Shown: positions 6,333-32,102, counted from the first letter of the stretch. The stretch is 32,102 nt of DNA from Holophagaceae bacterium (GCA_017859955.1 JAFNAB010000065.1:1-32102), one strand, 5' to 3'. Program-made: numbers and translations. Notes: a model not told the origin generated them from the sequence alone.

Positions 6333-9191
6333 ATGGCCTCCGTTCGATTGAACCGGGCGCTGCTGGGCTTTCTTTCTGGTGCGGCCCTGTGTGCGCAGAG
6401 CACCGGCCCCACGACCGCCGACCTGCGCGGCAGTCTACGGGGGATCCAGCCCTCATCTTTGACCGAGATCCGACTCCGATCCAAGACCCATAGCACCCGG
6501 TGGATGCTGCGGCCAGATCCCCGGGGAGTCTTCACCTTCCACCTCCTTCCCCCAGGCGCTTACGAACTGGAGGTTTGGAGCGAGGGAGGCGTACACCTGC
6601 GTTTGCCGGATCTCCAACTCCACGCTGGCACCACCCATGAAATTACCCTGGTGGCCCCGCCGCCCGCCCAGGCCCAGGTGGGAGTAGAGGATTCCCTGGA
6701 ATCCTCTGGAGAAACCCGCACCCAGGCGGCCTGGGTGGTCGATTCCCAACTCATGGCAGCTTTGCCCATCAATCGCCGGAACTATGCCGACCTCAGCCTG
6801 GTGACCCCCTTGGCGGCCACGGGGCGGGGCCCCATCAATGCCGGCGCCCCGGACTCCGGACTGAGCTTCGCTGGGGCCGGCCCCCGGCAGAACAATTTCA
6901 TGGTGGATGGGCTGGACAACAACGACCTGGGAAACGGCAACAGTCGACTCCTGATGAGCCAGGAGGCCATCCAGGAGTTCCAGGTCATCACCAACGGCTA
7001 TGCCGCCGAATTCGGCCGGGCCACGGGCGGGGTGGTCAACGCGGTGACCAAAAGCGGGAGCAACCGGACCGAAGGCAACCTGTTCTACTACCTCCGTCCG
7101 GGTACCCTCGATGCCAAATCCCCCTTGGCGGAAGGCCGTTCCCACTTCCAGATGCAGCAGTACGGAGGCTCAGTCTCCGGCCCCATCGTGAAGGACCGCC
7201 TTTTTTATTACGCCTGTGCTGAACGCCTGGTTCGCTCAGACGAGAACCAGATCGTCATCGATCCCTCGGCGGCGGCCATCATCGGGAACAGCGGGTTCAA
7301 TCTGGCCACGGGAGCCCAGGCTGTCTCGGAAACAGCATTCTCCATCCTCACCAAGCTGGACTATCTGGAAAGCCCTGAGAGCCGATGGGGTCTGCGCCTT
7401 TTGCACAGCAGTCAGCACAGCGATGATCTCATCCCCTGGGGAGGACTGAAGGCCCGCAGTGTCGGGGGACATCAGGATCTCCGGGATACGGCGCTGACCC
7501 TCACCCGGCAGTGGATCCCCAGCGCCAGTCTTATCCGGGAAAGCAAGCTCATGTACACCACCCGGAGCAACCGTCTCCGGGCCCTGGATGATGACCGGAC
7601 GGTCCAAGTGGATATCCAGGGGGTCGCCAGCTTCGGCACCCAGCGACTGACCCCCCAATCCACGCATACCACCTACCTTCAGCTCGCGGATTCCACCACA
7701 TGGATCATGGGGGAACACACCTTCAAGGCCGGAGTCGACTGGCTCAACACCCATAACCGCGGTTCCGTGGAAAACAACTACGCCGGGTACTACCTCTTCC
7801 AGGCGTTACCCAGCGCAGGCCTCACCAGCCTCGCCGCGTATTACTACGGTTTCCCGGTGGCCTTCGTCCAGTCCTTCGGCGACCCCTCCACCAGTTTCAG
7901 CACGGACTATCAGAGTGCCTTCCTACAGGACGAGTGGCGCCCCCGCCAGGAACTCCTGCTCCGCTTCGGCCTCCGCTATGACCGGGAGCGCATCCCCACC
8001 TTCGAGGACACTTCCGATTACCGGGCCCTTGGGGGTGCCAGTCAAACCCGTCTGCCGGACGGGGATATCGCCTATTCCGATCTGTTCAAGGCTCAACGGG
8101 ACTGGACCTCGGCCCGCTGGTCTCCCCGTTTCTCCTTCAGCTGGCAGGCAAGCCCGGCCTGGCGCGCCTTCGGCGGCTTTGGCACCTTCATGGGCCAGAC
8201 CAACCTGAGCCCCATATTCGGCATGAGGGCAACCAATGGTGCCCATGGCTATGGCATCATCCTGACGGCCCTCGACGCCAGCCCCCTGGACCCCACGAGC
8301 ATCGGAATGAACCCCGCCATGGCCTGGGCCTTGGCCAACCACCGATTTGCCAGTGACCCTGGGATCTTCCCCATCACCCTGGTCATCCCCGGCTCTCACG
8401 AGGCCCCGGTGAGCCACCAGCAGAACCTGGGGCTGGAATGGAAGGCCAGCCCGGGTCTGACCTTGACCCTGGATCTCCTGCGATCCAGGGGCAGCCATCT
8501 GCTGAACATGCGGGACGTGAATGCCTATGTCCCCTACGAGGGATGGTTCCGCCGTGTCGACACCCGGTATTCCAGCATCTACCGGGTGGACGATTCCGGT
8601 GCCAGCCGATACTCGGCCCAGAGCATTACCCTTGACTGGCGTCCCTCCGGGAAACTCCGCTTCCAGGGCTCTTACTGCCACAGCAAGGCTGAAGACAACT
8701 ACTCGGATTGGACTGGTTCGCTCCCTCCCCAGAATTCCTTCGATCCCTCCACCGAATGGGGCCCGAGCTCCCAGGACCAACGGCACAGGGTGCTCCTGAG
8801 CGCCCTGATGACCAGCGGAGATTCCGGCCCTTCCTGGCGGAACAGCTGGACACTGGGCCTGCAAGCCACCATGGGCAGCGGGCGGCCCTATACGAAGCTC
8901 GCCGGTGTGGACCTCAACTACAACGGGGATGGCTCTTCGGATCGCCCGGAGGGGGTGGGCCGCAATTCGGAGAATCTCCCATGGACCCGACGCATTGACC
9001 TGAGATTGTCCAAGGCCTTCGCCTGGGCCACCCTACGGGGGGAAGCCTCGCTGGATGTCTTCAACCTCTTCAATCACGCCAATGTGACGGAAGTGCAGAA
9101 TGTCCTGGACGCCCAGACCCCTGCCTACGGCACCCCCATCGGCTATGAAGCCATGCGGCAACTGCAGGTGGGCCTACGCCTGAAATACTAA
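6333..9191 (+). CDS. TonB-dependent receptor, Oar-like, with N-terminal carboxypeptidase-regulatory-like domain
   Basis: A 952-residue outer-membrane protein. It opens with a signal peptide (basic start, then ALLGFLSGAALCAQ). A carboxypeptidase-regulatory-like domain follows (about 28-110, with the typical GVFTFHLLPPGAYELEV strand). The plug domain carries ALPINRRNYADLSLVTP and NFMVDGLDNND, then EFQVITNGYAAEFGRATGG. The rest alternates as beta-barrel strands and ends in LQVGLRLKY, whose terminal aromatic fits the outer-membrane assembly signal. This architecture matches the Oar-like receptors expanded in Acidobacteriota. The ligand is unknown; such proteins may take up peptides or glycans or have adhesive roles. 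I see no clear TonB box. It is the last gene of a three-gene run. Confidence 0.88.
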   Translation: MASVRLNRALLGFLSGAALCAQSTGPTTADLRGSLRGIQPSSLTEIRLRSKTHSTRWMLRPDPRGVFTFHLLPPGAYELEVWSEGGVHLRLPDLQLHAGTTHEITLVAPPPAQAQVGVEDSLESSGETRTQAAWVVDSQLMAALPINRRNYADLSLVTPLAATGRGPINAGAPDSGLSFAGAGPRQNNFMVDGLDNNDLGNGNSRLLMSQEAIQEFQVITNGYAAEFGRATGGVVNAVTKSGSNRTEGNLFYYLRPGTLDAKSPLAEGRSHFQMQQYGGSVSGPIVKDRLFYYACAERLVRSDENQIVIDPSAAAIIGNSGFNLATGAQAVSETAFSILTKLDYLESPESRWGLRLLHSSQHSDDLIPWGGLKARSVGGHQDLRDTALTLTRQWIPSASLIRESKLMYTTRSNRLRALDDDRTVQVDIQGVASFGTQRLTPQSTHTTYLQLADSTTWIMGEHTFKAGVDWLNTHNRGSVENNYAGYYLFQALPSAGLTSLAAYYYGFPVAFVQSFGDPSTSFSTDYQSAFLQDEWRPRQELLLRFGLRYDRERIPTFEDTSDYRALGGASQTRLPDGDIAYSDLFKAQRDWTSARWSPRFSFSWQASPAWRAFGGFGTFMGQTNLSPIFGMRATNGAHGYGIILTALDASPLDPTSIGMNPAMAWALANHRFASDPGIFPITLVIPGSHEAPVSHQQNLGLEWKASPGLTLTLDLLRSRGSHLLNMRDVNAYVPYEGWFRRVDTRYSSIYRVDDSGASRYSAQSITLDWRPSGKLRFQGSYCHSKAEDNYSDWTGSLPPQNSFDPSTEWGPSSQDQRHRVLLSALMTSGDSGPSWRNSWTLGLQATMGSGRPYTKLAGVDLNYNGDGSSDRPEGVGRNSENLPWTRRIDLRLSKAFAWATLRGEASLDVFNLFNHANVTEVQNVLDAQTPAYGTPIGYEAMRQLQVGLRLKY

Positions 9192-9227: not shown

Positions 9228-12200
9228 TCATAGGGGCAGGTGCATCGCTGCAAAGCGCTCCGGGTTCAGGATACCCCGTTGCCGCATGTCCGATTCGGCG
9301 CCTGCCAGGAGCTCTCTGCCAGGCTCTCCCTGGAGACGAGCCCGACAATAGCGTGCGATGACTGCATGCAGGAGCATGTCACAGGCTTCAAAGGCCACTT
9401 CGGCCTGGAGGAGGAAGCCCTGGGCCTCCCCGTTCCGTTGCTGAACCAGGGCGCCGAGGGCCCTCAAACGCAGGGCCAGGGCATGTCCGTAGGGCGTGCC
9501 TTCCTGTTCGATGGCCCGGATGTCAGCCTTGGCCCGTTTCCATTGTCCGTGGGACAGATTTTTCTTCGAGGCCAGTGCCAACCCGAAAATACTGCGGGCG
9601 CGCAACTCCCAGCAAGTGATGGCAATGGCCTGGACTCGCAGCAGCATGGACCGTTTCAGATCGTTCCAGGAGGCATCCAGGTAGTCCAGGGCCTCCTGAT
9701 GGGCACCGGCGTAGAGTTCAATACTCACCCTGGAGACGAATTCATTATAGTGCTGGGCATGGAAGGCCAGGTTGGACCAGAAGGCCATGGAGTCCTGAAG
9801 GTCGGCCCGGGCACGGTCGGGATCGTCCTGGGCCAGGTGCAACAGATAGGCATATCCCGTCTTCAGATTGGTGAGGGCCAGCAGATCGCCCTGCCCCTTG
9901 GCCACCTGTAGGAGTTCCGGGAGTCGCCGGGCCACCTCCGGCAGATCCCCCATGACGCTGTAACCCACCAAAGCCTGGAACTGGGCGATGTGAATCTCGT
10001 AATCCAGGCCCGAACAGTGATCCTTGAGGAGGTGTTCTGCCTTGTCCAGGAGTTCGGCTCCGGCCCTCCAGCGGCCCTGCATGATGGCGGCGATGCCCGC
10101 GCCGATCAGGGCCCTTCCCATGGGGTTCGGATGCCCCATCCGTTCCGCAAGGGAGAGGGCCTGGGCCAGCGCGCGCCCGGTCTCCTCCTCGGATCGCAGG
10201 CCACCATGGGCCAGAAAGACCGCCTCATGAGCCAAAGCCCGAACTAAGCGAAAGGGTTCCCCTGCCTGCAAGGTCAGGAGGAGCTGGCGTGCCTGGAAGC
10301 CAGCTCCCCGGATGGGATCCACAGGGCCGAAACCCATGGCAGCGGCCCAGAGGACGTCGATGCGGTCGAGGCGTTCATCCGGGATCTCCTCCTTGGCCGT
10401 CACCCGGAAGGAAAGGCCCCGGAACCTCAGCCGAATCCGCCAATACAGCACCGAAAGCAGTGCCCGCAGGGGTGTGCGGGGAAGATTGGCCCCTGCGTGG
10501 GGTAGCAGGCTGGCCAGGATGGCCACCCCTCGGTCCATGTGGCCGCTCTTCATGAATTCTTCGGAAGCGCGCCGCTTGAGGAACAGGGACTCAGGGCCTT
10601 TGGCATCCGGGAGGAGGCGAAGATAGGCCTCGGCGGCCTCCGCACTCCGTCCGGCATTGCAGAGAACCCCCGCATAGCGCAGGGCCAGATCGCGATGGTC
10701 CCGATAGGGCTCCGGGAGCAGTTCCAGGGCCTGACCAAGCAGGGTCGCGGCCTGATCGAAGGCAAGGGAAGCTTCGGCCTGTTCCCCGGCAATCCGGAAA
10801 TAGCGGGCTGCCTTTCCGCGGGCACCACCAGCCTTGAAGTGCGAAGCCAGCAGAACAGTGTCCGTCTCCCCCCGCCCTTCCATGGCCTCGGCCAGATGGA
10901 GATTCACCTGGACAGCACGTTCCGCGTCCATCCCCCCGACCACCGTTTTCCGGACGCGCTCATGGTAGGGCTCGAGGACCTTCTCTTCATGGGCCCCCCT
11001 CACCCGGATGAGCCTGAAAGCCCTCAACTGGGAGAAGCCATGGTAGCCACCGCCATGGCGCCCCATGGCTTCCCGGGCCAGGGCCCAGGAGACGGGGCAC
11101 CCTGCCATCGAAACCGTTTCCAGGAGTTCCCGGGCATCCTCCGGCAGGGCACGGATACGATCCTGGATATAGCAATCCAACCCAGTCTCAGGACCAGAGA
11201 GGAGGCCCCGCCCACCTCCGAAAAAGTAGGCCAGCTCCCGGATGAAGAAGGGGTTCCCGCCGGACTCCCGGGCGATCCGTTCCGCCATCAGCTCCCGTCC
11301 CTCCCCGGGGCCACCCAGGAATTCGAGGGCGAAAGCGCGGGAATCGGACAGGCTCAGACGGTGGAGTTCAACCTCGGTAACAGCCCCGAAGACCTCCGTC
11401 TGGGAGGAACAGAGCTGACGAAGAATGGGCGAAGTCTGGAGTTCATCACTCCTGAAGGTGAGGACCAGCATCAGCCCCGGGGCCTCTGGGAGACGAAAAA
11501 GTTCCGCCAGTAGGGCTGCGCTATCCAGATCCCCCCAATGGAGATCTTCAATGATCATGACCAGAGGGTAGAGCTTGGCGAGGCGCGCCAGCAGTTCCCG
11601 GAAGGCCGAGAAGGCCCTTCTCCTCAGCTCAACGGCATCCGGGAGAGCCGTCAAGGCCGGCAGTTCCGCCAGACCTGGAATCTGACCCAGCACCGGAAAA
11701 AGTCGGACCAGAGCCTGCATGTGCCGGGGGAGGAGGGCCTTGCAGGTCAGGGGAGGAAGGACCTTGAGTCGCGCACTGAGAGCGTCCACCAGGCTGTCCA
11801 GAGCCTTGAACGGCACCGTTTCCTGCTCGTAACAGCGGCCGGAGAGGGTCTGTACCCGAGGCTCCCGCCGCCCCACCTCCTTCAGGAATCTCCGGATGAG
11901 CGCACTTTTCCCGGATCCGGATTCTCCGTGCAGCCAGACCGTACGGAAAGTGCCTTCCTGAAGGCGCTGGAATTCGCGAAGCAAGAGCCCCAGCTCCTTC
12001 TCGCGCCCAGGGACCTCCCGGACCGGAAGGTGCCGAGCCATCGGGTTGGCCCCAGGAGCCATGGAATCATCGAGCCTGGCGAGGATGTCCTGGGCGGAGG
12101 GCCGAAGCATGGGATCCCGCTCCAGCAACGCCATGCAGAGCCCCTCCAGATCCTCCGGAAGGCCCTCCACAAGCAGGGATGGAGGACAGGGATCCATCTC

Positions 12201-13049
12201 GGCCTTCGCCCTGACAATGTCCAGGTAGTTGCCAATATAGGGAGGTTGCCCCGTCAGGACCTGATAGAGCATGATCCCCAGGCTGTACCAGTCGCTGGCC
12301 GGGGAGCATTCGGCTCCTGCGAGCAGTTCCGGAGCAATGAAGGCCGGAGTACCGGCGGGACCGCCGGTCTCCTGGTTTTCGGCCACCAGTTGAGTCGCCA
12401 GGCCGAAGTCCAGGATCACCACCCGCCCGAGGGGGCTGATAAGCACATTGCTCGGTTTCAAATCCCGGTGAACGATGCCGGCCTCATGGAGGGCAGCAAG
12501 ACCGTGGACCAGATCCACCAGAGCCTTGCGGATGATGCCGAAGTCCCTGGGGGGAGAACAGGGGTAGGTCGTGAGCACAAGGGGGGCGCCTCCGGCGAAG
12601 GAAGCCCTCTCGGGTACATCATCCGAAGGCAGGGGATGGAGGGTCGCTTGCGAGCGGATAGAGGTCTCGGTACATCCTTCCGGATGCCGGGTGGGACCGG
12701 AGTCCACAACCTCGGCACAGTCCCCCCGCAGGGCCAAAAAAAAGTCTTTGCCCTCCACCAGCTCCATCGTAAAAAACCAGCGATCTTCTTCGGTCCACAG
12801 TTCATGCAAGGTCGCGAGATTGGGGTGGCTGACGTCAGCCAGGGACCGGAATTCCTGCTTGAGCCGAAGGAGGTCCGCCGCCTTGAATGCATGGGGAACC
12901 TTCAAGGCAATGGAGACTTTACGCTCGCCATCGAAGGCCTCGTAGACCTTGCCAAACGAGCCCGACCCGAGACACCTTCGCAGGGTGAAACGCTCCGTTC
13001 CCCAAAAATTTTCCGTGGCGACCATTTGCCTAGTATCCCGGGCTTCCAC
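9228..13049 (-). CDS. Ser/Thr protein kinase fused to AAA-type ATPase and TPR-like region
   Basis: A 1273-residue multidomain signalling protein. The kinase domain (about 20-325) has the Gly-rich loop GSGSFGKV (28-35), Lys50, HRDLKPSN (194-201), DFG (214-216) and APE (239-241), so it should be active. The ATPase follows with Walker A GESGSGKS (375-382) and Walker B VMIIEDLHW (497-505). The remaining 700 or so residues are helical, Leu/Ala-rich TPR-like repeats with no DNA-binding domain that I can see. The kinase lobe carries an unusual insertion of about 60 residues (108-168). The first possible start is GTG 13049, 6 bases after the upstream gene; ATG 13025 is equally credible. Related kinase-ATPase-TPR proteins are common in Myxococcales and Acidobacteriota. 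Confidence 0.88.
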   Translation of the reverse strand: MEARDTRQMVATENFWGTERFTLRRCLGSGSFGKVYEAFDGERKVSIALKVPHAFKAADLLRLKQEFRSLADVSHPNLATLHELWTEEDRWFFTMELVEGKDFFLALRGDCAEVVDSGPTRHPEGCTETSIRSQATLHPLPSDDVPERASFAGGAPLVLTTYPCSPPRDFGIIRKALVDLVHGLAALHEAGIVHRDLKPSNVLISPLGRVVILDFGLATQLVAENQETGGPAGTPAFIAPELLAGAECSPASDWYSLGIMLYQVLTGQPPYIGNYLDIVRAKAEMDPCPPSLLVEGLPEDLEGLCMALLERDPMLRPSAQDILARLDDSMAPGANPMARHLPVREVPGREKELGLLLREFQRLQEGTFRTVWLHGESGSGKSALIRRFLKEVGRREPRVQTLSGRCYEQETVPFKALDSLVDALSARLKVLPPLTCKALLPRHMQALVRLFPVLGQIPGLAELPALTALPDAVELRRRAFSAFRELLARLAKLYPLVMIIEDLHWGDLDSAALLAELFRLPEAPGLMLVLTFRSDELQTSPILRQLCSSQTEVFGAVTEVELHRLSLSDSRAFALEFLGGPGEGRELMAERIARESGGNPFFIRELAYFFGGGRGLLSGPETGLDCYIQDRIRALPEDARELLETVSMAGCPVSWALAREAMGRHGGGYHGFSQLRAFRLIRVRGAHEEKVLEPYHERVRKTVVGGMDAERAVQVNLHLAEAMEGRGETDTVLLASHFKAGGARGKAARYFRIAGEQAEASLAFDQAATLLGQALELLPEPYRDHRDLALRYAGVLCNAGRSAEAAEAYLRLLPDAKGPESLFLKRRASEEFMKSGHMDRGVAILASLLPHAGANLPRTPLRALLSVLYWRIRLRFRGLSFRVTAKEEIPDERLDRIDVLWAAAMGFGPVDPIRGAGFQARQLLLTLQAGEPFRLVRALAHEAVFLAHGGLRSEEETGRALAQALSLAERMGHPNPMGRALIGAGIAAIMQGRWRAGAELLDKAEHLLKDHCSGLDYEIHIAQFQALVGYSVMGDLPEVARRLPELLQVAKGQGDLLALTNLKTGYAYLLHLAQDDPDRARADLQDSMAFWSNLAFHAQHYNEFVSRVSIELYAGAHQEALDYLDASWNDLKRSMLLRVQAIAITCWELRARSIFGLALASKKNLSHGQWKRAKADIRAIEQEGTPYGHALALRLRALGALVQQRNGEAQGFLLQAEVAFEACDMLLHAVIARYCRARLQGEPGRELLAGAESDMRQRGILNPERFAAMHLPL

Positions 13050-21122: not shown

Positions 21123-21601
<479 letters not shown>

Positions 21602-21605
<4 letters not shown>

Positions 21606-22042
21606 GCTCCGATGGCATGCGCCTGGACGAACAGCTCTGCTTCGCCCTCTACGCCGCTTCCCGGGCCATGACCCAGGCCTACCAGCCCTTCCTGGCCCCC
21701 CTGCGCCTGACCTATCCCCAGTACGTGGTCATGCTGGTGTTATGGGAGGGCGATGGCCTCACCGTGAGCGAGATCGGCGAGCGCCTCAGGCTGGACTCGG
21801 GAACCCTGACGCCCCTGCTCAAGCGCCTGGAGGGCCTGGGTTACGTCACCCGCCGCCGCAGCCTTGAGGACGAGCGCAGGGTGCTGGTCAGCCTCACAGA
21901 CCAGGGCCGGGAACTGCGGAAAGAGGCCGTGGCCATGAGGCAGAACATGGTGTGCAGCCTTCAGGGACGCATGGACCTCCAGACGGGTGAACAACTGCGA
22001 GAGGCCCTGAAGGGCCTGATGGTGGTTCTGGGACCGAGCTGA
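21602..22042 (+). CDS. ohrR: MarR-family organic peroxide sensor, OhrR type
   Basis: A 146-residue winged-helix repressor that responds to organic hydroperoxides. The sensing Cys13 lies in the hallmark [11 protein letters not shown]; Tyr27 and Tyr38 sit exactly 14 and 25 residues later, as the tyrosines around the reactive Cys do in Bacillus OhrR. A second Cys118, 105 residues after the first, matches the spacing of Cys22 and Cys127 in the 2-Cys Xanthomonas OhrR. The wing is [16 protein letters not shown]. The start is GTG 21602, sharing bases with the TGA of the peroxidase gene (GTGA), so translation is coupled; ATG 21617 is possible. It probably represses its own operon through the palindrome at 21065-21088. 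Confidence 0.88.
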
Positions 22043-22230: not shown

Positions 22231-22608
22231 ATGCCGCCTATCCCACCTCGCCCCACCGAAGCCGAGCTAGGTATCCTTAGTGTCCTTTGGCAGCTCGGCC
22301 CATGCACTGTGAAGCAGGCTCATCAGGCCATCGCCAAAGATCGGGAATTCACCTACACCGGTGCCCTGAAGCTCATGCAGATCATGCGGGATAAGGGTCT
22401 GCTCTTGCGTGATGAGAGCAACCGATCCCATGTCTACTGGCCAGCCCACAGCCAAGAGGAGATGCAGGGTAGCCTCCTGGGGGATTTCATGGACAGAGCC
22501 TTCGCGGGTTCCGGGCGGGATCTCGTCCTAGCCGCCCTGAGGGCGGGCCGGGTCAGCCCCGAAGAGAAGGCCGATATCCGCAGGCTACTGGGGGAGGAGG
22601 AAGCATGA
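22231..22608 (+). CDS. BlaI/MecI/CopY family transcriptional repressor
   Basis: A 125-residue winged-helix repressor. The DNA-binding part (about 8-75) has TEAELGILSVLWQLGPCTVK, then the recognition helix and wing (TYTGALKLMQIMRDKGLLLR, then SHVYWPA). A helical C-terminus (80-125) should form the dimer and carry the protease-sensitive site. In the family, the partner M56 protease triggers cleavage of the repressor when an inducer is sensed. The ATG has GGGGAG 5 bases upstream, and the stop overlaps the next start (ATGA). No beta-lactamase or PBP2a gene is present, so the regulon is unknown. Confidence 0.88.
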   Translation: MPPIPPRPTEAELGILSVLWQLGPCTVKQAHQAIAKDREFTYTGALKLMQIMRDKGLLLRDESNRSHVYWPAHSQEEMQGSLLGDFMDRAFAGSGRDLVLAALRAGRVSPEEKADIRRLLGEEEA

Positions 22609-24320
22609 ATCCCTGGCTGCAGGACCCGCGACTCCTGGCCCTGGGCTGGACCCTCGCCCACTCCCTTTGGGAAGGGGCCGCCGTGGGCCTGGTGTCGGCA
22701 GCGGCCCTGGCCTCCTTCAGGGGTAGCTATACGCGTTACCTGATCGCGGGGCTGGGACTTGCGACCTGCTTGGCGCTGCCCCTGGCCACCTTGATGTTGC
22801 TATGGCCCGGGAACCAGGCCTCCCTTGTCCACCTTCCTCCGACCTGGCCGAGCATCGCCCAGGCAGGGTTGGCCAGCGGAGGAGCCGCCTTGCAGCCCAC
22901 CTTCCACCTATCCCCTTTTCTGGCCCGGTGTCTACCCTGGGCAGCGCTGTTTTGGGCAGTGGGCGTGGCCCTCGGCGGAGTTCGACTCGCGGGAGCCTGG
23001 TGGTGGCTCCAACGCCGAGCGGCCATGGCGTCGGCCCGGGTTCCTGTGGCCATCACAGACCGGGTCCATGAGATGGCTCGAAGCCTGGGCGTGCGACGCA
23101 GGCTGACCCTCAGAGCCTCGTCCACCTTGGATGGACCGGTCACCCATGGCTGTTGGAGACCGGTCATCCTGGTGCCCACAGCCCTCCTAACGGGCTTTCC
23201 CCCCGCCTACCTTGAGGCGCTGCTGGCCCATGAAGTAGCCCATATTACCCGCCATGATTTCCTGGTGAATCTCCTGCAGAGCCTTGTCGAGGTCGTGCTC
23301 TTCTATCACCCCGTAGCGTGGTGGCTTTCCCGCCGGATCCGGACCGAGCGCGAACACCTGTGTGACAGCCTTGCGGCGAAGGTCCTGGAGGATCCCCTCC
23401 GCTTGGCCCGAGCCCTTAACGCCCTGGATGACGCCCAAGCACGTCATCAGGCCATGGCCCTGGCGGCCCGTGGAGGACATCTCGTGAATCGAATCCGCAA
23501 TCTCGTCTCACCCATGTCAGTGAGGGCTCCTCACCCCTGGGCGATGACCGCCTTCCTCCTCCTGCCCACCATGGCCCTGGCGGGGGTTTCCCTGGGGCGC
23601 ACGGCAAAAACCCTTCCCGCCGCTGGGTCCATCCACGCCCAGGGCCATCTCAGCCCCAATGGTGCCGGGAAATGGACTCTGGAGATGACGACCGAACATC
23701 CCGATTCCCACGGCAAGCTGAACGTTTTCGTGGAGCCAATCCTGCCTGGAAAGGCTTCAGAGCCGACCGCCGACTGGTCCTGGTTTGCCTCTGGAGAACC
23801 GAAGGCATCGAGCAGGCCTTCGACAGTCCGCGTCAAGTGCGGGCTGGATCTGGCTCCCGCCATGACGAGCCTGCGGGTCACCCTCCAGACCACCACTGGC
23901 GAACTGGGACAGGTTGTCGTTCCCGTCGTTGAAGGGGATTTCCAGGTGGATCTCCACGCCCAGAATCTCGCCCGTGAAAACGGTTGGGCGGAGGGGACTC
24001 TTGTGAAGATCCCGGGAAACCCAGACCAGCTTCGCTTGGGCATGAAGCTATTCCTGTCGGGGGTCGACCTGGCCATCACGACCGTGGATGGACAGTCCCT
24101 TGGCCGTCTTCGGGCCGGGCGGAAGCCGGGCGCAGCCACCCCCCGGCTCCTCGCAAATCCGGTGATGCTCACGCGCTGCCCTGCGGGAACCGACCGGGTG
24201 GTCCTGACCTTCCGGGAGCCATCCAGCGGCCGTACGTCCAGGATAGAGGTGCCCGTAAATCAGGATACAGTGACCTTCCACACGGATCTGGTGGCCTCGG
24301 GCCCGGTTACTCCCCAATAA
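22605..24320 (+). CDS. M56 family metalloprotease, BlaR1-like, with novel C-terminal domain
   Basis: A 571-residue membrane protein. Hydrophobic helices are visible near 25-37, 45-67, 110-131 and 310-325. The M56 zinc-protease signature is LLAHEVAHITRHD (HEVAH at 209-213), with the third-ligand region EREHLCDSLA (Glu250, Asp254) 40 residues later. In BlaR1/MecR1 a C-terminal penicillin-binding sensor follows the last helix. Here the 240 or so residues after it are beta-rich, and I see no SxxK-type sensor motif, so the inducer is probably not a beta-lactam. It overlaps the BlaI-like gene by 4 bases and should be the protease that releases repression. Confidence 0.85.
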   Translation: MNPWLQDPRLLALGWTLAHSLWEGAAVGLVSAAALASFRGSYTRYLIAGLGLATCLALPLATLMLLWPGNQASLVHLPPTWPSIAQAGLASGGAALQPTFHLSPFLARCLPWAALFWAVGVALGGVRLAGAWWWLQRRAAMASARVPVAITDRVHEMARSLGVRRRLTLRASSTLDGPVTHGCWRPVILVPTALLTGFPPAYLEALLAHEVAHITRHDFLVNLLQSLVEVVLFYHPVAWWLSRRIRTEREHLCDSLAAKVLEDPLRLARALNALDDAQARHQAMALAARGGHLVNRIRNLVSPMSVRAPHPWAMTAFLLLPTMALAGVSLGRTAKTLPAAGSIHAQGHLSPNGAGKWTLEMTTEHPDSHGKLNVFVEPILPGKASEPTADWSWFASGEPKASSRPSTVRVKCGLDLAPAMTSLRVTLQTTTGELGQVVVPVVEGDFQVDLHAQNLARENGWAEGTLVKIPGNPDQLRLGMKLFLSGVDLAITTVDGQSLGRLRAGRKPGAATPRLLANPVMLTRCPAGTDRVVLTFREPSSGRTSRIEVPVNQDTVTFHTDLVASGPVTPQ

Positions 24321-24558: not shown

Positions 24559-25119
24559 ATGACGACTCGAAGCTCTGACACACGCAACCTCCTGCTCCAC
24601 TCAGCGCTTGCCATCCTGATGGAGGGGCGGGATCTGCTGACCCTGGATGCCGTGGTCAAGCGCTCCGGGGTCAGCAAGGGTGGGCTCACCCATCACTTCC
24701 CCACCAAGGAGGCCCTCATCGAAGGGGTCATCGAGGAAATGATCAGCCAGTTCATGGATGTCGCGAACCGCTTGGGCGATAGCGCAGCGCCCGGAACTGC
24801 CGCGGGGGTGAAGGCCTATATGGATGCGAGCCTGGACCCGGCCCTGCGCCGGGCCAGCGCCGATCTTGCCAAAGGGGTAATCCGGCTCTACGGTTCGGAT
24901 CTCCGCGAGAATTCCCCTTTTCTGGATCCTTGGCGGAAGCTCTTCGCCAGCCGACTGGATCGGTTCCGCCAGGCGGGTGATGCGGAAGGATTCGCCAAGG
25001 CCGCGATCATCACCCTGGTCATCGAGAGCTTTGTCATGATCGATGTTTTCAATCTGTACCGGTTCAGCGCGCAGGAAATGGACGCTATCAAGCGCGAAAT
25101 GCTGAATATCACGAAATAA
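24559..25119 (+). CDS. TetR/AcrR family transcriptional repressor
   Basis: A 186-residue regulator with an N-terminal helix-turn-helix (about 25-52: LTLDAVVKRSGVSKGGLTHH, then FPTKEALIEGV) and an all-helical ligand-binding C-terminus. The recognition helix, SKGGLTHHFPTKEAL, is typical of the family. It is the first gene of the operon, followed after 60 bases by a membrane-fusion protein gene, so it is very likely the local efflux repressor. A strong promoter and a perfect inverted repeat lie just upstream. The ATG at 24559 has only a weak ribosome binding site. Confidence 0.92.
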   Translation: MTTRSSDTRNLLLHSALAILMEGRDLLTLDAVVKRSGVSKGGLTHHFPTKEALIEGVIEEMISQFMDVANRLGDSAAPGTAAGVKAYMDASLDPALRRASADLAKGVIRLYGSDLRENSPFLDPWRKLFASRLDRFRQAGDAEGFAKAAIITLVIESFVMIDVFNLYRFSAQEMDAIKREMLNITK

Positions 25120-25179: not shown

Positions 25180-26283
25180 ATGCCCACACGTTTGTGTATA
25201 TCCCTTGCCATCCTGGCTTCCCTCATCGGATGCGGTTCCAGCCAGAAGTCCCAGGCCGAGGTTCCGCAATGGGTCCGGGTCGCCCTGCCGGAAGTCAGTG
25301 ACCAGCCGGAAGGCTTTGCGCTGAGTGGCACAGTGATGACCCAGGGTGCTCCTCAAACCCTATCCTTCCAGGTACCTGGCCGGGTCGTAACCGTCGGCCC
25401 ACGGGAGGGAGAACTGGCCAGGAAAGGCCAGGTGCTCGCCTCCCTCGAGAACTCCAGCTATGCCGCAGCCCTCGCCACCGCCAGCTCCCAGAAGAGGGCG
25501 GCCCAGGCCGCACTTTCCCGCGCCCAGGACGAGCTACAGCGGATGAAGCTCATCTACGAGAGGCAGAGCCTGGCCGAGAACGACTTCCTTAAGTTCAAAC
25601 TGGCGGAGCAGACGGCCCGGGAACAACTCCTTCAGGCGGAGGCCCAGGAAAAGGTGGCCCGTAAAGCCCTCGGCGATACCCACCTGAGCGCTCTGGTGGG
25701 GGGCGTCGTCACTCGTCGGTCGGTGGAGCCTGGCGTCATGGTAGCAGCCGGGCAGCCCGCCTTCGAAATTGCCCAGGTGGATCCGGTGGAAATCCAGATC
25801 GGTATCCCCGAGAACCTCGCGGGGTCCCTGAAGATCGGCCAGACCGCCGTAGTGACCCTGCCGAGCCTGCCGGGTACCCGGTTCGAAGGGACGCTGCGGG
25901 TGATCAACGCGACCGCCGACCCCGCCAGCCGAACTTACATGGCCCGCGTCGCCCTGAAGAACCCCAAGGGAGTGCTGCGCCTCGGCATGGTCGCCGAGGC
26001 GAGAATCCGGGGCGAGCGCAGAGAGCGCATGCTTCTGGTGCCCTGCGAAGCCATCGTGAAGGATCTCCACGGCGCCTCGGTGGTGTATGAATTCCGGGCA
26101 GGCGAGAACCGGGTCCTGGCTCGCCGCGTGACCCTGGGTGCCCTCGAAGGAAACCGGATCCAGGTGCTGAGCGGCATCGATGCGTCGACCCGGATCGTGG
26201 TGGCGGGCCAGAACTTCCTCCGGGACGGATCTCCAGCCCAGGTCGAGGGCGAAAAGTCCCAGTCCCTTTCGGGAGGGCACTGA
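25180..26283 (+). CDS. RND efflux periplasmic adaptor (membrane fusion protein), lipoprotein
   Basis: A 367-residue HlyD/AcrA-type adaptor that bridges the inner-membrane pump and the outer-membrane channel. The signal peptide ends in a clear lipobox, LIGC (15-18), so it is anchored by lipid at Cys18. The lipoyl-like half-motif (FQVPGRVVTVGPREGELARKG) is followed by an alpha-helical hairpin (about 90-155, Ala/Gln/Glu-rich), the second lipoyl half (ALVGGVVTRRSVEPGVMVAA) and the beta-barrel and membrane-proximal domains. The ATG has a GGGAG site 4 bases upstream. The pump gene starts 3 bases after the stop. Confidence 0.93.
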   Translation: MPTRLCISLAILASLIGCGSSQKSQAEVPQWVRVALPEVSDQPEGFALSGTVMTQGAPQTLSFQVPGRVVTVGPREGELARKGQVLASLENSSYAAALATASSQKRAAQAALSRAQDELQRMKLIYERQSLAENDFLKFKLAEQTAREQLLQAEAQEKVARKALGDTHLSALVGGVVTRRSVEPGVMVAAGQPAFEIAQVDPVEIQIGIPENLAGSLKIGQTAVVTLPSLPGTRFEGTLRVINATADPASRTYMARVALKNPKGVLRLGMVAEARIRGERRERMLLVPCEAIVKDLHGASVVYEFRAGENRVLARRVTLGALEGNRIQVLSGIDASTRIVVAGQNFLRDGSPAQVEGEKSQSLSGGH

Positions 26284-26286
26284 GCC

Positions 26287-29200
26287 ATGAAGCGCATGAT
26301 CCAATTCTTCCTCAGGTACCCCGTGGTCACCCTGGTGGTGGCCGCTCTGGTCGCCATGGTCGGCCTCCAGGCCCTGTGGGGCATGCCCCGGACCGAGGAT
26401 CCCAGCATCACGATCCGCACCGGTCTGGTCATTGCGGCCTATCCGGGGGCGACCACCCAGCAAGTCGAACAACAGGTCACCCGCCCCATCGAGTCCCACC
26501 TCTTCAAGTGCCCCGAGATCCGGAAGAGCAAGACCTTCACCACCACCCGTCCCGGCCTGGTCATCTTCAACGTCGAGCTGGAAGACCACGTAAATCAAGC
26601 CGACACCTTCTGGGCCAAGCTCAGAGCGGAACTCGAACTGACGAGGGCAACCGAGCTGCCCCAGGGCGTCATGGGCCCGATCGTGGATGCCGACTTCGGG
26701 GAAACGGTCGCCATGCTCATCGCGATCCGGGGGGAACGTTACGGCTACCGCGAACTCCGGGACTACGCCGACCTAGTCAAGGACGAGCTGAGGACCATCC
26801 GGGAGGTTGGCCGCCTGGCCACCTATGGACAGCAAGAAGAGCAGATCTGGGTCACGGGCAACCTGGGCCGCCTGTCCCAGTACTCGGGGGATCCTTCCCG
26901 CATCGTCGCAGCCCTGAACCAGAGGAACGCCATCTCGCCCTCCGGAAGCCTGCTCACCGAGTCGGCCAAGATCCCCTTCAACACCCCTGGCCTGTTCAAC
27001 ACTGAGGAGCAACTCCGGAAGCTGATCATCGATGTCTCCCCCACCGGACAGCCCGTCTACCTGGGAGACCTGGCGCAGATCGAGCGCCGCTACAAAGACC
27101 CGGAGTACCTGGTCCGCTTCGATGGCCAACCCGCCCTGCTCCTCTCGGTGGAGATGCAGAAGGGCAAGAACATCGTGGATATGGGGGACAAGATCTCCGA
27201 AGCCCTCACGCGGTTGAAGCAACGCATGCCCTCGGACGTGAAGCTGGATTTCATCGCCAACCAGCCCCAGGTCGTGTCCTCCCGGATGCACCACCTCGGC
27301 GTGGAGTTCCTACTGGCCATCGGCGCCGTGATCCTGGTGGCGGTCATCCTCCTGCCGATCCGGGTCGCGGTCATCGCGGCCCTGGCCATCCCTCTGACCA
27401 TGCTCGGCACTCTGGGCATCCTCAGCGCCATCGGCATCGAGCTGCACCAGGTTTCCATCGCCGCCCTCATCGTCGTGCTCGGCATTGTCGTGGATGACGC
27501 CATTGTCATCGCCGACAACTATCTCGAACTGCTCGACCATGGGGTGCCGCTCATCCGGGCGGCCTGGCGGTCGGCAACCGAGGTGTTCGTGCCCGTCCTG
27601 ACCGCCACGCTCACCATCATCGCCTCCTTCCTGCCCCTCCTGATCCTCAAGGGCAGCGTCGGGGAATTCATCATGGCCCTGCCCATCACCGTGGCCCTGG
27701 CCCTGAGCGTCTCCTTCCTGGTCGCGATCTTCATCACCCCGCTGCTGTGCCGGAAGTTCATCACCCAGGGCATCCACGCCTCCGCCGCCGGTCGGCAAGG
27801 CCCTCGGAGCTTCAATCTCCTGGACTGGATCCAGACCCAGTACACCAAGGCCATCCGGTTCATGATGATGCGGAAAGGCCTGTCCCTGGGCTTCGGGGCC
27901 CTCAGCATCGCCCTCGGCGCCATGCTCTACACCCTCGTTCCCGAGCAATTCTTCCCCAGCGCCGAGCGCAACCAGTTCGTCGTCGACCTCTGGATGCCCC
28001 AGGGCACCCGGATCGAGGCGACCCAGGCCACCCTCCAGCGAATCGAAGGTCATCTCAGCGGCATCAAGGAGGTCGAGCATTTTGCGACCTTCGTGGGCGA
28101 GAGCGCCCCCCGCTTCTATTACAACGTCAATCCCCAGCAGCCGGATGCCGCCTATGGGCAGATGGTCGTCAACACCAGGAACATGAAGAAGACGGAGGCC
28201 TTGGTGCAGCAGCTCCAGGTTGAATTGGCCCAGGTCGCACCCGAAGGCATGGTGATCGTCAAGGAGCTCCAGCAGGGTGACTCCATGGAGGCCCCGGTGG
28301 AGTTCAGGATCATCGGCGAGGATACCGAACGCGTGAAGGCCGTCGGCGCCCAGGTGGAGAACATCCTACGGGGCCTTCCCGAATCCCGGTTCGTGCACAC
28401 GGACCACTTCAACGACTCCCCCCTCGTGAACGTCAACATCCATCCCGAACTCGCGAACCGCCTGGGCCTCAGCCACATGGGCATCGCCCAGATCCTGGCA
28501 GGCGGCCTCGATGGAGCGCCGGTCAGCACCTTCTGGGAGGGAGATCGCGCGGTGCCGGTGATTCTGAGGTTGGACGCCAGCCATCGGAGCAGCTTCGGTA
28601 CGGTCCAGGGCACGCCCATGACCTCCCCCTTGTCGCAAGGCAGTCTCCCCCTCGGGGCCATCGCCAACCTGAAACCCGAATGGCAACCCAGCCGCCTCGT
28701 CCGCAGGAACGGCCTGCCGACCCTCACGGTACGGAGCTTCATGAAGCCCGGACACTACGCCTCCACCCTTCAGGGCAAGGCTGAGCTGCAGGTCGCCAAA
28801 CTGGCCCTGCCTCCGGGGGTCCGCATCGAACCCGGGGGCGAGGTCGAGAACCAGGGGGAGACCTTCCCCATGATGGTCCTCGCCCTTGGCATCAGCCTTC
28901 TGGCCATCTTCCTCGTGCTGCTGGTGCAGTTCCGGAACCTCAAAGAACCGCTGGTCATCATGGCCTCCATCCCGCTATCCCTCTTCGGGGCCATGCTGGG
29001 ACTGGTGATCACGGCCAACCCCTTCGGCTTCACGGCGTTCATGGGGATGATCAGCCTGTGCGGCATCGTCGTCAGGAATGCCATCATCCTGGTGGAATAC
29101 ACCAAGGAACGCCGTCATGCCGGCGCTTCCCTCACGGAAGCGGCCATGGAAGCCGGATCCCGGAGGCTTCGCCCGATCTTCCTGACCACCGTGGCCGCAG

Positions 29201-30684
29201 CGGTGGGCGTGCTGCCCATGATCCTCTCCGGCTCGAAGCTGTGGAGCCCGCTGGCCAGTGTCATCGCGGTAGGCCTGCTGCTGTCGATGGTCTTCACACT
29301 GCTGGTGGTCCCGGTCCTCTATGTCGTCGTCATGGAGGGGAGGTGGCGGCGGATCCGCCCTGTCCTGGTCATCCTGTGCCTCGCGGCGGCCCCCAAGGTC
29401 TGGGGCGCGGCCCCGGAGACGCTCACGCTCCAGCAGTGCCTCCAACTGGCCCAGGCCCGGAGTTCCGCCATCAGGATCGCCAAGGCCCGGGTGGAGGAGA
29501 ATCGACAGAAGGCGAAGGCCGTCCGAACGGACTATCTGCCCCAGCTCACCGGTGACTGGAACTGGAGCCGGATGACCACCGAAAGTCTGGTGACCATCCC
29601 GGCGGGAGGCTTGGGGACCTTGCCGGATGTCGGCGCCTTCCCCTCCCAGGCGGTCACCCTAAGCCAGGGCTCGCGGAACCTGTCCATCGCGAATCTCACG
29701 CTGGGACAGCCGTTGACCCAGCTGCTCAAGATCCGCCAGGCCGACCTGGCCGCCGCGAAGGACCTGGAAGCGGCGCAGGCGGACCTCAGCAAGGCCGAGA
29801 GCGAGACCCGCCTCGCGGTGCACCAGGTCTATCTGGGCATCCTTATCGCCCAGAAGCAGCAGGCTGCCGCCGACGCGGAACTTGCGGCCGTGGAAGCGGG
29901 ATGCGAGGAAAGCCGTGCCGCGGTTAAGGCCGGCAACGCCCTGAAGGTCCTCAACCTGGGCGCTGGCGCGTCGATTCTCCAGGCCCGCCAGAAGCAGATC
30001 GCGGCCCGGCACCAGGAGGAGGATCTCGTCGGCGAACTGAAAGACCTGATCGGCTTCCCGCCAGAGGGACGGATGGCCCTCACCGCGCAGGACCTCCAAC
30101 CCATAGCCCCTCCTCCCCTGAGTGCGGTGCTCAGCTCCATGCGCCAGGACAACGCCGACATCCGCTCAGCACGAGCCCTTCACGAAAAATCCATCAGCGG
30201 GATACGCCTGGCCAAGCTGGATTACGTTCCGGACCTCAGTGCCTTCGTGAAATACACCAACCAGAGCGGAGTCCCCTTCCTGAAGAACGACTTGGTCAGC
30301 GCAGGCGTGCAGGTGTCCTGGAACATCTTCGATTGGGGGAAGCGCAACCATGTCATCAGTCAGCGCATGGCCGAGTCCGCCCAGGCCCGGGAGAATTTAG
30401 TGCGGATCGAGAACCGGGTCCGTCTGGATCTGGAGAAGGCCTACCGAAAACTCGAGGACGCCAAGCTCCTGCAGGAAGCCGCCGACCAGGCCCAGGCCTT
30501 CCAGTCGGAGACCCTGAGAATCGCCCGGGACCAGCGGGAGGCAGGCCTCATCCCCCAGGTCCGGCTCGAAGAGGCCAAGCGGGCGGCCGCCTCAATGGAT
30601 TTGAGCGCCCTCCAGGCCCGGATGGGAGTGTGCCTGGCGGGAGCAGAGATCGAGCGGATTCTCGGGAAAGAATCCACCCATTGA
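26287..30684 (+). CDS. RND efflux permease fused in frame to a TolC-like outer-membrane factor
   Basis: A 1465-codon frame encoding two normally separate proteins. Residues 1-1015 are a complete AcrB-like RND pump: TM1 near 12-30, porter segments, TM2-6 about 335-490 with the proton-relay pair Asp403-Asp404 (VVDDAIVIADN), and TM7-12 ending LLVVPVLYVVVM. Arg replaces the AcrB Lys940 equivalent (GIVVRNAIILVEY). Residues 1016-1041 (MEGRWRRIRP, then VLVILCLAAAPKVWGA) look like a full signal peptide with a likely cut after Ala1041. Residues 1042-1465 are a TolC/OprM-type factor (TLTLQQCLQLAQARS, two helical repeats, VSWNIFDWGKR). There is no separate TolC gene at the locus. Whether it works as one chain or is cleaved is unknown. 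Confidence 0.9.
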   Translation: MKRMIQFFLRYPVVTLVVAALVAMVGLQALWGMPRTEDPSITIRTGLVIAAYPGATTQQVEQQVTRPIESHLFKCPEIRKSKTFTTTRPGLVIFNVELEDHVNQADTFWAKLRAELELTRATELPQGVMGPIVDADFGETVAMLIAIRGERYGYRELRDYADLVKDELRTIREVGRLATYGQQEEQIWVTGNLGRLSQYSGDPSRIVAALNQRNAISPSGSLLTESAKIPFNTPGLFNTEEQLRKLIIDVSPTGQPVYLGDLAQIERRYKDPEYLVRFDGQPALLLSVEMQKGKNIVDMGDKISEALTRLKQRMPSDVKLDFIANQPQVVSSRMHHLGVEFLLAIGAVILVAVILLPIRVAVIAALAIPLTMLGTLGILSAIGIELHQVSIAALIVVLGIVVDDAIVIADNYLELLDHGVPLIRAAWRSATEVFVPVLTATLTIIASFLPLLILKGSVGEFIMALPITVALALSVSFLVAIFITPLLCRKFITQGIHASAAGRQGPRSFNLLDWIQTQYTKAIRFMMMRKGLSLGFGALSIALGAMLYTLVPEQFFPSAERNQFVVDLWMPQGTRIEATQATLQRIEGHLSGIKEVEHFATFVGESAPRFYYNVNPQQPDAAYGQMVVNTRNMKKTEALVQQLQVELAQVAPEGMVIVKELQQGDSMEAPVEFRIIGEDTERVKAVGAQVENILRGLPESRFVHTDHFNDSPLVNVNIHPELANRLGLSHMGIAQILAGGLDGAPVSTFWEGDRAVPVILRLDASHRSSFGTVQGTPMTSPLSQGSLPLGAIANLKPEWQPSRLVRRNGLPTLTVRSFMKPGHYASTLQGKAELQVAKLALPPGVRIEPGGEVENQGETFPMMVLALGISLLAIFLVLLVQFRNLKEPLVIMASIPLSLFGAMLGLVITANPFGFTAFMGMISLCGIVVRNAIILVEYTKERRHAGASLTEAAMEAGSRRLRPIFLTTVAAAVGVLPMILSGSKLWSPLASVIAVGLLLSMVFTLLVVPVLYVVVMEGRWRRIRPVLVILCLAAAPKVWGAAPETLTLQQCLQLAQARSSAIRIAKARVEENRQKAKAVRTDYLPQLTGDWNWSRMTTESLVTIPAGGLGTLPDVGAFPSQAVTLSQGSRNLSIANLTLGQPLTQLLKIRQADLAAAKDLEAAQADLSKAESETRLAVHQVYLGILIAQKQQAAADAELAAVEAGCEESRAAVKAGNALKVLNLGAGASILQARQKQIAARHQEEDLVGELKDLIGFPPEGRMALTAQDLQPIAPPPLSAVLSSMRQDNADIRSARALHEKSISGIRLAKLDYVPDLSAFVKYTNQSGVPFLKNDLVSAGVQVSWNIFDWGKRNHVISQRMAESAQARENLVRIENRVRLDLEKAYRKLEDAKLLQEAADQAQAFQSETLRIARDQREAGLIPQVRLEEAKRAAASMDLSALQARMGVCLAGAEIERILGKESTH

Positions 30685-30859: not shown

Positions 30860-31471
30860 ATGGGTATGGCCAGCAAGATTGCCCTGGGATGCGGCGGAGT
30901 CGTGGTCCTGATTTTGGTGGTCCTGGGACTTGCCGGGGTGGGCTCGTACAACTCCCTCAACAGCCTCAACCAGGCGGTGGAGGCCCAGTGGGGCCAGGTG
31001 GAGAATGTCTACCAGCGGCGGGCCGACCTGGTACCCAACCTAGTCGAAACGGTCAAGGGCGCGGCGGCCTTTGAGAAGGAGACCTTCATGGCCGTCACGG
31101 AGGCCCGCGCCAAGGTGGGCCAGGTGTCCGCAGGAAAGGCACCTTCCGATGCAGCCTCCCTGGCCCGCTTCCAGCAGGCCCAGGAGGGCCTGGGATCGGC
31201 CCTCTCCCGCCTCCTTGTGGTGGTCGAAAAATATCCCGACCTGAAGGCCACCCAGAACTTCCGGGACCTCCAGGCCCAGCTGGAGGGAACCGAGAACCGC
31301 ATCGCCGTGGAGCGCATGCGCTTCAACCAGGCGGCCCAGGCCTTCAATACCAAGCGGAACAGCTTCCCGACGCTGATCGTGGCGGGCTTCCTGGGTGACC
31401 GATTCCGGGACAAGGCCTATTTCAAAGCCCAGGCCGGGGCCGAGACGGCTCCGAAGGTCTCCTTCCAGTAA
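30860..31471 (+). CDS. lemA: LemA family protein
   Basis: A 203-residue protein with an N-terminal membrane helix (about 10-28, GCGGVVVLILVVLGLAGVG) and the conserved LemA core: YNSLNSLNQAVEAQWGQVEN, then YQRRADLVPNLVETVKG, and later ENRIAVERMRFNQAAQAFN. The family is membrane-anchored with a helical-bundle domain; its exact role is poorly known. It starts at ATG 30860 with GGAGG 4 bases upstream. The TPM-domain gene begins one base after its stop, a common pairing. The 175 bases before it hold no clear promoter or terminator. Confidence 0.93.
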   Translation: MGMASKIALGCGGVVVLILVVLGLAGVGSYNSLNSLNQAVEAQWGQVENVYQRRADLVPNLVETVKGAAAFEKETFMAVTEARAKVGQVSAGKAPSDAASLARFQQAQEGLGSALSRLLVVVEKYPDLKATQNFRDLQAQLEGTENRIAVERMRFNQAAQAFNTKRNSFPTLIVAGFLGDRFRDKAYFKAQAGAETAPKVSFQ

Positions 31472-31472
31472 C

Positions 31473-32102
31473 ATGCACAGGCTCCTATCCCTGTTTCTGC
31501 CCCTGCTGCTCCTCTGGGGCAGCCTGGGGCTGGGTGCCCAGGAGCCCCTTCCGCCAGCCCCCAGACAGTGGGTGACCGATACCCAGGGAGTGCTCTCTCC
31601 CACGAAACGGTCCGCCCTGAACCGGCGCTTGGCCCAATACGAAAAGGCCACCGGACACCAAGTCCTGGTGTGGATCGGGGGAAGCACCGGAGGCGGTGCC
31701 CTGGAGGACTGGTCGGCCCGCACCTTTGAGTCCTGGAAGGCCGGACGCAGCGGAAAGGATGATGGGCTCGTCCTTTTCATCCTGGCCCGGGACCGCAAGC
31801 TCCGCATCGAAGTAGGCTACGGACTGGAGGGCCAGGTGCCCGATGCCGTGGCCTCCCGGATCATCCGGGAGGCCATCACGCCCAGGCTTGCAGCGGGGGA
31901 CTGGGATGGGGCTGTGGAAGCGGGGGTCGACGGACTCCTGACCAGGCTGGGAGGCGAAACCCGGGAGGGAGCGCGCGCCGAAGGTGCCCGGCAAAATAGC
32001 GTGCGAAGCCTCAGTCTTGGCCAGATCCTCCTGTTGGTCATCCTGGGACTGGGCTTCCTGGTCCTCCTGGTGACCCATCCCAGCCTGGCCATCGGGCTCA
32101 TC
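31473..32102 (+). CDS. TPM domain protein (YgcG-like), C-terminus cut by window edge
   Basis: An open frame from ATG 31473 to the window end, giving 210 visible codons. It begins with a signal peptide (MHRLLSLFLPLLLLWGSLGL, then GA|QEP). The TPM domain follows (about 32-155: VTDTQGVLSPTKRSALNRRL, GHQVLVWIGGSTGG, DDGLVLFILARDRKLRIEVG, YGLEGQVPDAVASRIIRE). A hydrophobic helix (QILLLVILGLGFLVLLV) then anchors it. TPM proteins are thought to be envelope-associated and often sit beside LemA, as here (one-base gap). The C-terminal part lies outside the window. Confidence 0.88.
   Translation, partial: MHRLLSLFLPLLLLWGSLGLGAQEPLPPAPRQWVTDTQGVLSPTKRSALNRRLAQYEKATGHQVLVWIGGSTGGGALEDWSARTFESWKAGRSGKDDGLVLFILARDRKLRIEVGYGLEGQVPDAVASRIIREAITPRLAAGDWDGAVEAGVDGLLTRLGGETREGARAEGARQNSVRSLSLGQILLLVILGLGFLVLLVTHPSLAIGLI

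Follow-up and report, generated by a model that had tools for sequence, protein, structure and literature searches.

In a Holophagaceae bacterium, the inner-membrane pump and the outer-membrane channel of a drug efflux system are encoded by one reading frame. This raises the questions of whether the frame is genuine and of how two proteins of different membranes could be obtained from a single chain. The window analyzed here is the whole 32,102-nucleotide stretch of DNA (GCA_017859955.1, JAFNAB010000065.1:1-32102). An earlier note on this DNA had described an unbroken frame of 1465 codons, and translation confirmed it, from an ATG to a TGA codon at positions 26287-30684 (+).

Composition of the fused gene and its operon

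The earlier note had divided the product into a full RND pump (residues 1–1015) and a full TolC-like factor, a division that agrees with the Pfam assignments, ACR_tran followed by two OEP repeats. The permease part (26287..29331, plus strand) spans TM1 to TM12, and its residues 4–1015 cover ACR_tran over the full length of the domain (8.7e-186). The Asp pair of the proton relay in TM4 is present (GIVVDDA, aligned with LGLLVDDA of MexK) and is shared with the TriC, MexK and AcrB systems, and the position of AcrB Lys940, in TM10, is occupied by Arg, as in MexK (GIVVRNA, aligned with GMIMRNS). The nearest solved permeases were MexK (20yy, 4.5e-141) and TriC (6vej), followed by AcrB, and TriC 6vej was also the top Foldseek match of an AF2 model of residues 505–1465. 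The permease did not reach the curated cut-off of any named NCBIfam subfamily. On TIGR00914 (CusA/CzcA, HME) its score was 354 against a cut-off of 701, which places it outside the HME subfamily.

The channel part corresponds to residues ~1042–1465 and the stop codon (29410..30684, plus strand). Its two OEP repeats extend up to residue 1460 (Pfam, 1.2e-41), and a profile search with this part reached TolC at 1.7e-14. When the part was modelled alone with AF2, the model had a mean pLDDT of 84, contained four helices of 36–72 residues together with strands, and matched TolC in Foldseek (7.5e-19, TM 0.72). The two repeats and the modelled helices and strands indicate that the channel part is predicted to have the TolC fold. 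A lipoprotein-type channel was considered on account of a Cys at the joint (LVILC) and rejected; this Cys is not conserved and is not part of a lipobox, there being no small residue before it.

Two genes in the same direction precede the fusion. A TetR-family gene (24559..25119, plus strand; Pfam TetR_N and TetR_C_28) is, judging from its position and direction, likely to encode the repressor of the operon. It is followed by the gene for an RND periplasmic adaptor, or membrane fusion protein (25180..26283, plus strand), whose match to NCBIfam TIGR01730 RND_mfp (1.7e-66) exceeds that model's own cut-off. An LIGC lipobox near residue 18 suggests that the adaptor is probably a lipoprotein. The adaptor stop codon and the fusion ATG are separated by a gap of 3 nt, and the adaptor gene likewise lies upstream of the fusion in most of the related loci inspected. 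Together, regulator, adaptor and fusion form a complete drug-type efflux operon.

Directly upstream of this operon (22231-24320, plus strand), a penicillinase-repressor (BlaI/MecI) gene overlaps a BlaR1-type M56 peptidase gene by 4 nt, and a MarR-like gene is found at 21497-22042. Right behind the fusion gene (30860-32102, plus strand) lies a LemA-family gene, and next to it a gene whose product, judged by eye, resembles TPM-domain (YgcG-like) proteins. Farther away, the minus strand encodes a protein of 1273 aa (9228-13049) that combines a Ser/Thr kinase domain at its N-terminus with an AAA_16 ATPase domain, and the opposite strand encodes a 952-aa TonB-dependent-receptor-like protein (6333-9191, plus strand). 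No match to a defence system was found.

Distribution and translation of the fused frame

The earlier note had proposed a search for the same fusion in related genomes, and this search yielded 41 other distinct loci with the same unbroken fusion, from Acidobacteriota, Geobacter-type isolates, other deltaproteobacterial groups and Nitrospirae. After removal of duplicates, the 41 sequences were aligned, giving 42 distinct members including that of the window. In the family of the window, 15 of 77 genomes had a strong match, nearly all of them as a single frame open over 1463 to 1612 codons; shorter matches lay at contig ends or, in one case, carried a frameshift inside the channel part with the joint still fused. 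A scan of GTDB genomes detected the fusion in Geobacter-type bacteria, among them isolates of Geomonas paludis, Trichlorobacter thiogenes and Oryzomonas japonica, in further deltaproteobacterial groups, in Bryobacterales, in MAGs of Nitrospirae, and in the complete genome of Candidatus Manganitrophus (G087, CP114561), where several RND permease genes are broken by frameshifts and stops and the fused gene is intact. Fused members were also found in Gemmatimonadota (Gemmatirosa) and Bacteroidota (Persicobacter, RefSeq WP_338399011.1). The pump–channel fusion occurs in five phyla or more.

In samples of the Geomonas class (18 of 146 genomes) and of the window's phylum (10 of 297 genomes), every member was fused except a 567-aa fragment, and the searches at family, class and phylum level revealed no channel encoded by a gene of its own among close orthologs. 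Three candidate split members were discarded: L040 is fused at the joint and has its frameshift later in the channel, L154 (G009) is a 567-aa open frame that retains joint and channel, and Gemmatirosa (L185), unfused according to its BLAST range, has a single 1612-codon frame. L154 is a decayed copy in which the pump lacks its first two thirds.

Two rival explanations concern the frame itself. One is that an assembly or sequencing error joined two genes in the MAG, whose 224 contigs could be taken to favor it. The earlier note had set as a test whether relatives have separate genes and this genome alone is fused, and the opposite was found: close orthologs in the searches are fused and none is split. 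The 41 further loci include isolates and single-contig genomes, and the RefSeq entry from Persicobacter is fused as well, leaving such an error a negligible chance. The note had also pointed to the two other forward frames, which are indeed open at the joint (frame +1 for 303 nt, 29270-29573; frame +2 for 771 nt, 28782-29553), but this says little, because long open frames are expected in a region of 68% GC. The other explanation is that ribosomes also enter at the joint and make the channel with its own N-terminal signal peptide, in which case the long frame would be a side effect of losing a stop codon. A candidate ATG, in frame at 29332 (residue 1016), lies exactly where a signal peptide would be expected to start, and a GGAGG-like stretch occurs just past it. 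However, this ATG is the sole in-frame ATG at the joint of the window and lacks Shine-Dalgarno pairing (+1.2 kcal/mol); the GGAGG is downstream of it, with only an ATC codon at the right distance after. The family alignment shows no conserved ATG, GTG or TTG at the joint. Pairing of -6 kcal/mol or stronger was obtained in the 41 relatives for 62% of the pump starts, but for only 10% of the joint candidates and 8% of random interior ATG, GTG or TTG codons. Since the candidate starts at the joint pair no better than interior codons, the whole chain is most likely made by one ribosome, and we regard an internal start as unlikely.

Properties of the joint and fate of the chain

The joint (residues 1016 to ~1042; 29332..29411, plus strand) was delimited from the alignment of the 42 distinct members and from cleavage-site scores. 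In the window it consists of a basic stretch (MEGRWRRIR), a hydrophobic core (PVLVILCLAAAP) and a weak cut region (KVWGA/AP, the slash marking the putative cut), and AF2 models placed a short helix there with low confidence. All members have the same layout, namely TM12 (LLVVPVxYV), a positive stretch, a hydrophobic core and the channel motif LTLxxAVxLAL, which in the alignment follows the core after about 4 to 11 residues. The letters of the joint drift among members and its properties are kept. Across the 42 members, the net charge ahead of the core had a median of +3 and was at least +2 in 93%, and the best 12-residue core had a median Kyte-Doolittle mean of 2.8. Between close relatives, dN/dS at the joint was mostly 0.2–0.5 (near 1 in one pair) and gaps comprised whole codons only, indicating that the joint is translated and, like signal peptides, under loose constraint.

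An A-x-A motif without a following Pro occurred in 30 of the 42 joints, compared with 15.9 expected by shuffling. Cleavage sites were scored with a matrix derived from 27 signal peptides of E. coli, a rough tool. Of 43 rows, 21 had the highest score among their ~1460 positions at the joint, and in 35 the joint ranked in the top three. The joints had a median score of 6.4, close to the 6.1 of OEP genes that stand alone in these genomes, whereas the tails of 22 unfused RND pumps had a median of -6.1 (maximum, 2.9). The signal-like joint with a VWGA/AP cut site described in the earlier note was therefore upheld as regards its signal-peptide properties, which extend throughout the family, but the site in the window is weaker than the note implied: VWGA/AP has W at -3, scored 0.4 and ranked 15th among 1450 positions of the protein. 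A cut after Gly (KVWG/AA) would fit the -3,-1 rule better, and the exact putative site is uncertain. A-x-A is also absent from a 74% relative of the window's fusion (L028/L072).

The weak site of the window bears on the suggestion, made in the earlier note, that an uncleaved chain would be a tethered pump. The core would then be retained as a thirteenth transmembrane helix, with the pump covalently bound to the channel. The enrichment of A-x-A sites across the family argues against such a tether. In the assembled AcrAB–TolC complex, the channel N-terminus lies more than 100 Å from the inner membrane; at that distance, an uncleaved chain would forbid the usual assembly, and normal tripartite assembly would require release. 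Because only about ten residues separate the core from the first channel helix, as in mature TolC, we consider a tethered pump very unlikely. There is also a slim chance that some members, that of the window for example, partly escape cleavage, so that the pump would be transiently tied to the channel N-terminus during assembly. If so, pump and channel trimers of the same chains would meet before release.

The fusion is probably a polyprotein with an internal signal peptide that signal peptidase I would cleave, supplying pump and channel 1:1. This reading of the earlier note is supported by the conservation of the fusion, by the signal-peptide-like joint and by the want of support for internal starts; family-wide, the joint presents an n-region, an h-region and a putative cut site, the last being weak in this member. 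The C-termini of RND pumps are cytoplasmic, as established for AcrB, and pump and channel assemble 3:3. A HAE1/TriC-like pump and a TolC-like channel would accordingly be translated as a single polyprotein whose chain is cytoplasmic past TM12. The basic stretch and the short core would then engage the Sec pathway again as an N-in helix, the thirteenth of the chain, by which the channel part would emerge in the periplasm, and signal peptidase I would cut behind the small residue at the end of this core. The freed channel would proceed to the outer membrane and the pump would stay in the inner membrane, with the lipoprotein adaptor bridging both, and the outcome would be strict 1:1 synthesis. 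The argument from a stoichiometric advantage is post hoc, since pump and channel are separate in most genomes.

Known counterparts and origin of the fusion

The closest known systems are tripartite HAE1 pumps, first TriABC (TriC, 6vej) and that of MexK (20yy), both from Pseudomonas, followed by AcrAB–TolC, which share the permease and adaptor families, a TolC-type channel and the order of the operon. In these systems pump and channel are separate genes, whereas here they form one ORF with an internal signal-like segment. A precedent for parting a chain in this way is fbcH of Bradyrhizobium japonicum, a cytochrome b/c1 polyprotein that signal peptidase cuts at an internal signal sequence. As proposed here, a membrane protein and an exported protein arise from one chain; unlike here, the products belong to a respiratory complex, and both reside in the inner membrane and none in the outer.

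No description of an RND–TolC fusion was found in a limited literature search, and the passages found of a 2021 review of tripartite systems (PMC8277102) do not mention an RND–channel fusion. The architecture itself is already in the databases: both domains are known and a fused RefSeq entry exists, WP_338399011.1 of Persicobacter, named "RND transporter permease subunit", so that its channel is invisible in gene lists. The parts themselves are ordinary, but how they are made is unusual and recurrent. How the numbers of pump and channel are matched in tripartite efflux, and how the partners meet, is still an open point, one that a gene family of several phyla and an independent heavy-metal counterpart would solve by means of a single chain. 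They provide natural systems in which stoichiometry, co-assembly and the way signal peptidase uses internal signal peptides can be studied on a single chain.

The heavy-metal counterpart comprises CusA/CzcA–OEP fusions of Flavobacteriia (L116, L117, L124–L128 and L130; 1445–1474 aa), in which the joint again consists of a basic stretch, a hydrophobic core and an AQ-type cut-like site. L116 scored 1214 on TIGR00914 (cut-off, 701). These proteins, L116 and L124 among them, have the same permease–joint–channel layout and differ in their HME permease. Because they fall in a separate clade of the RND tree, the fusion arose at least twice.

The main fused group forms one clade in the permease-domain tree, and its closest unfused kin are two Bacteroidota pumps, L073 and L076 (39% identical). 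In support of the polyprotein reading, in both of them a separate OEP gene begins shortly after the pump stop and encodes an ordinary N-terminal signal peptide: in L076 the OEP ATG lies 2 nt past that stop and the signal peptide is MKFILFSLAALSLFTANGRAQ/T, and in L073 the OEP gene follows closely with the plain signal peptide MARYILLLFICAYSFQGSAQ. The structure of the joint would be explained by such an arrangement, because the loss of the stop in an operon of this kind would at once make the N-terminal signal peptide an internal one. The fused protein of Persicobacter sits beside L073 and L076 in the permease tree, and may represent a third fusion event, or L073 and L076 may have split again.
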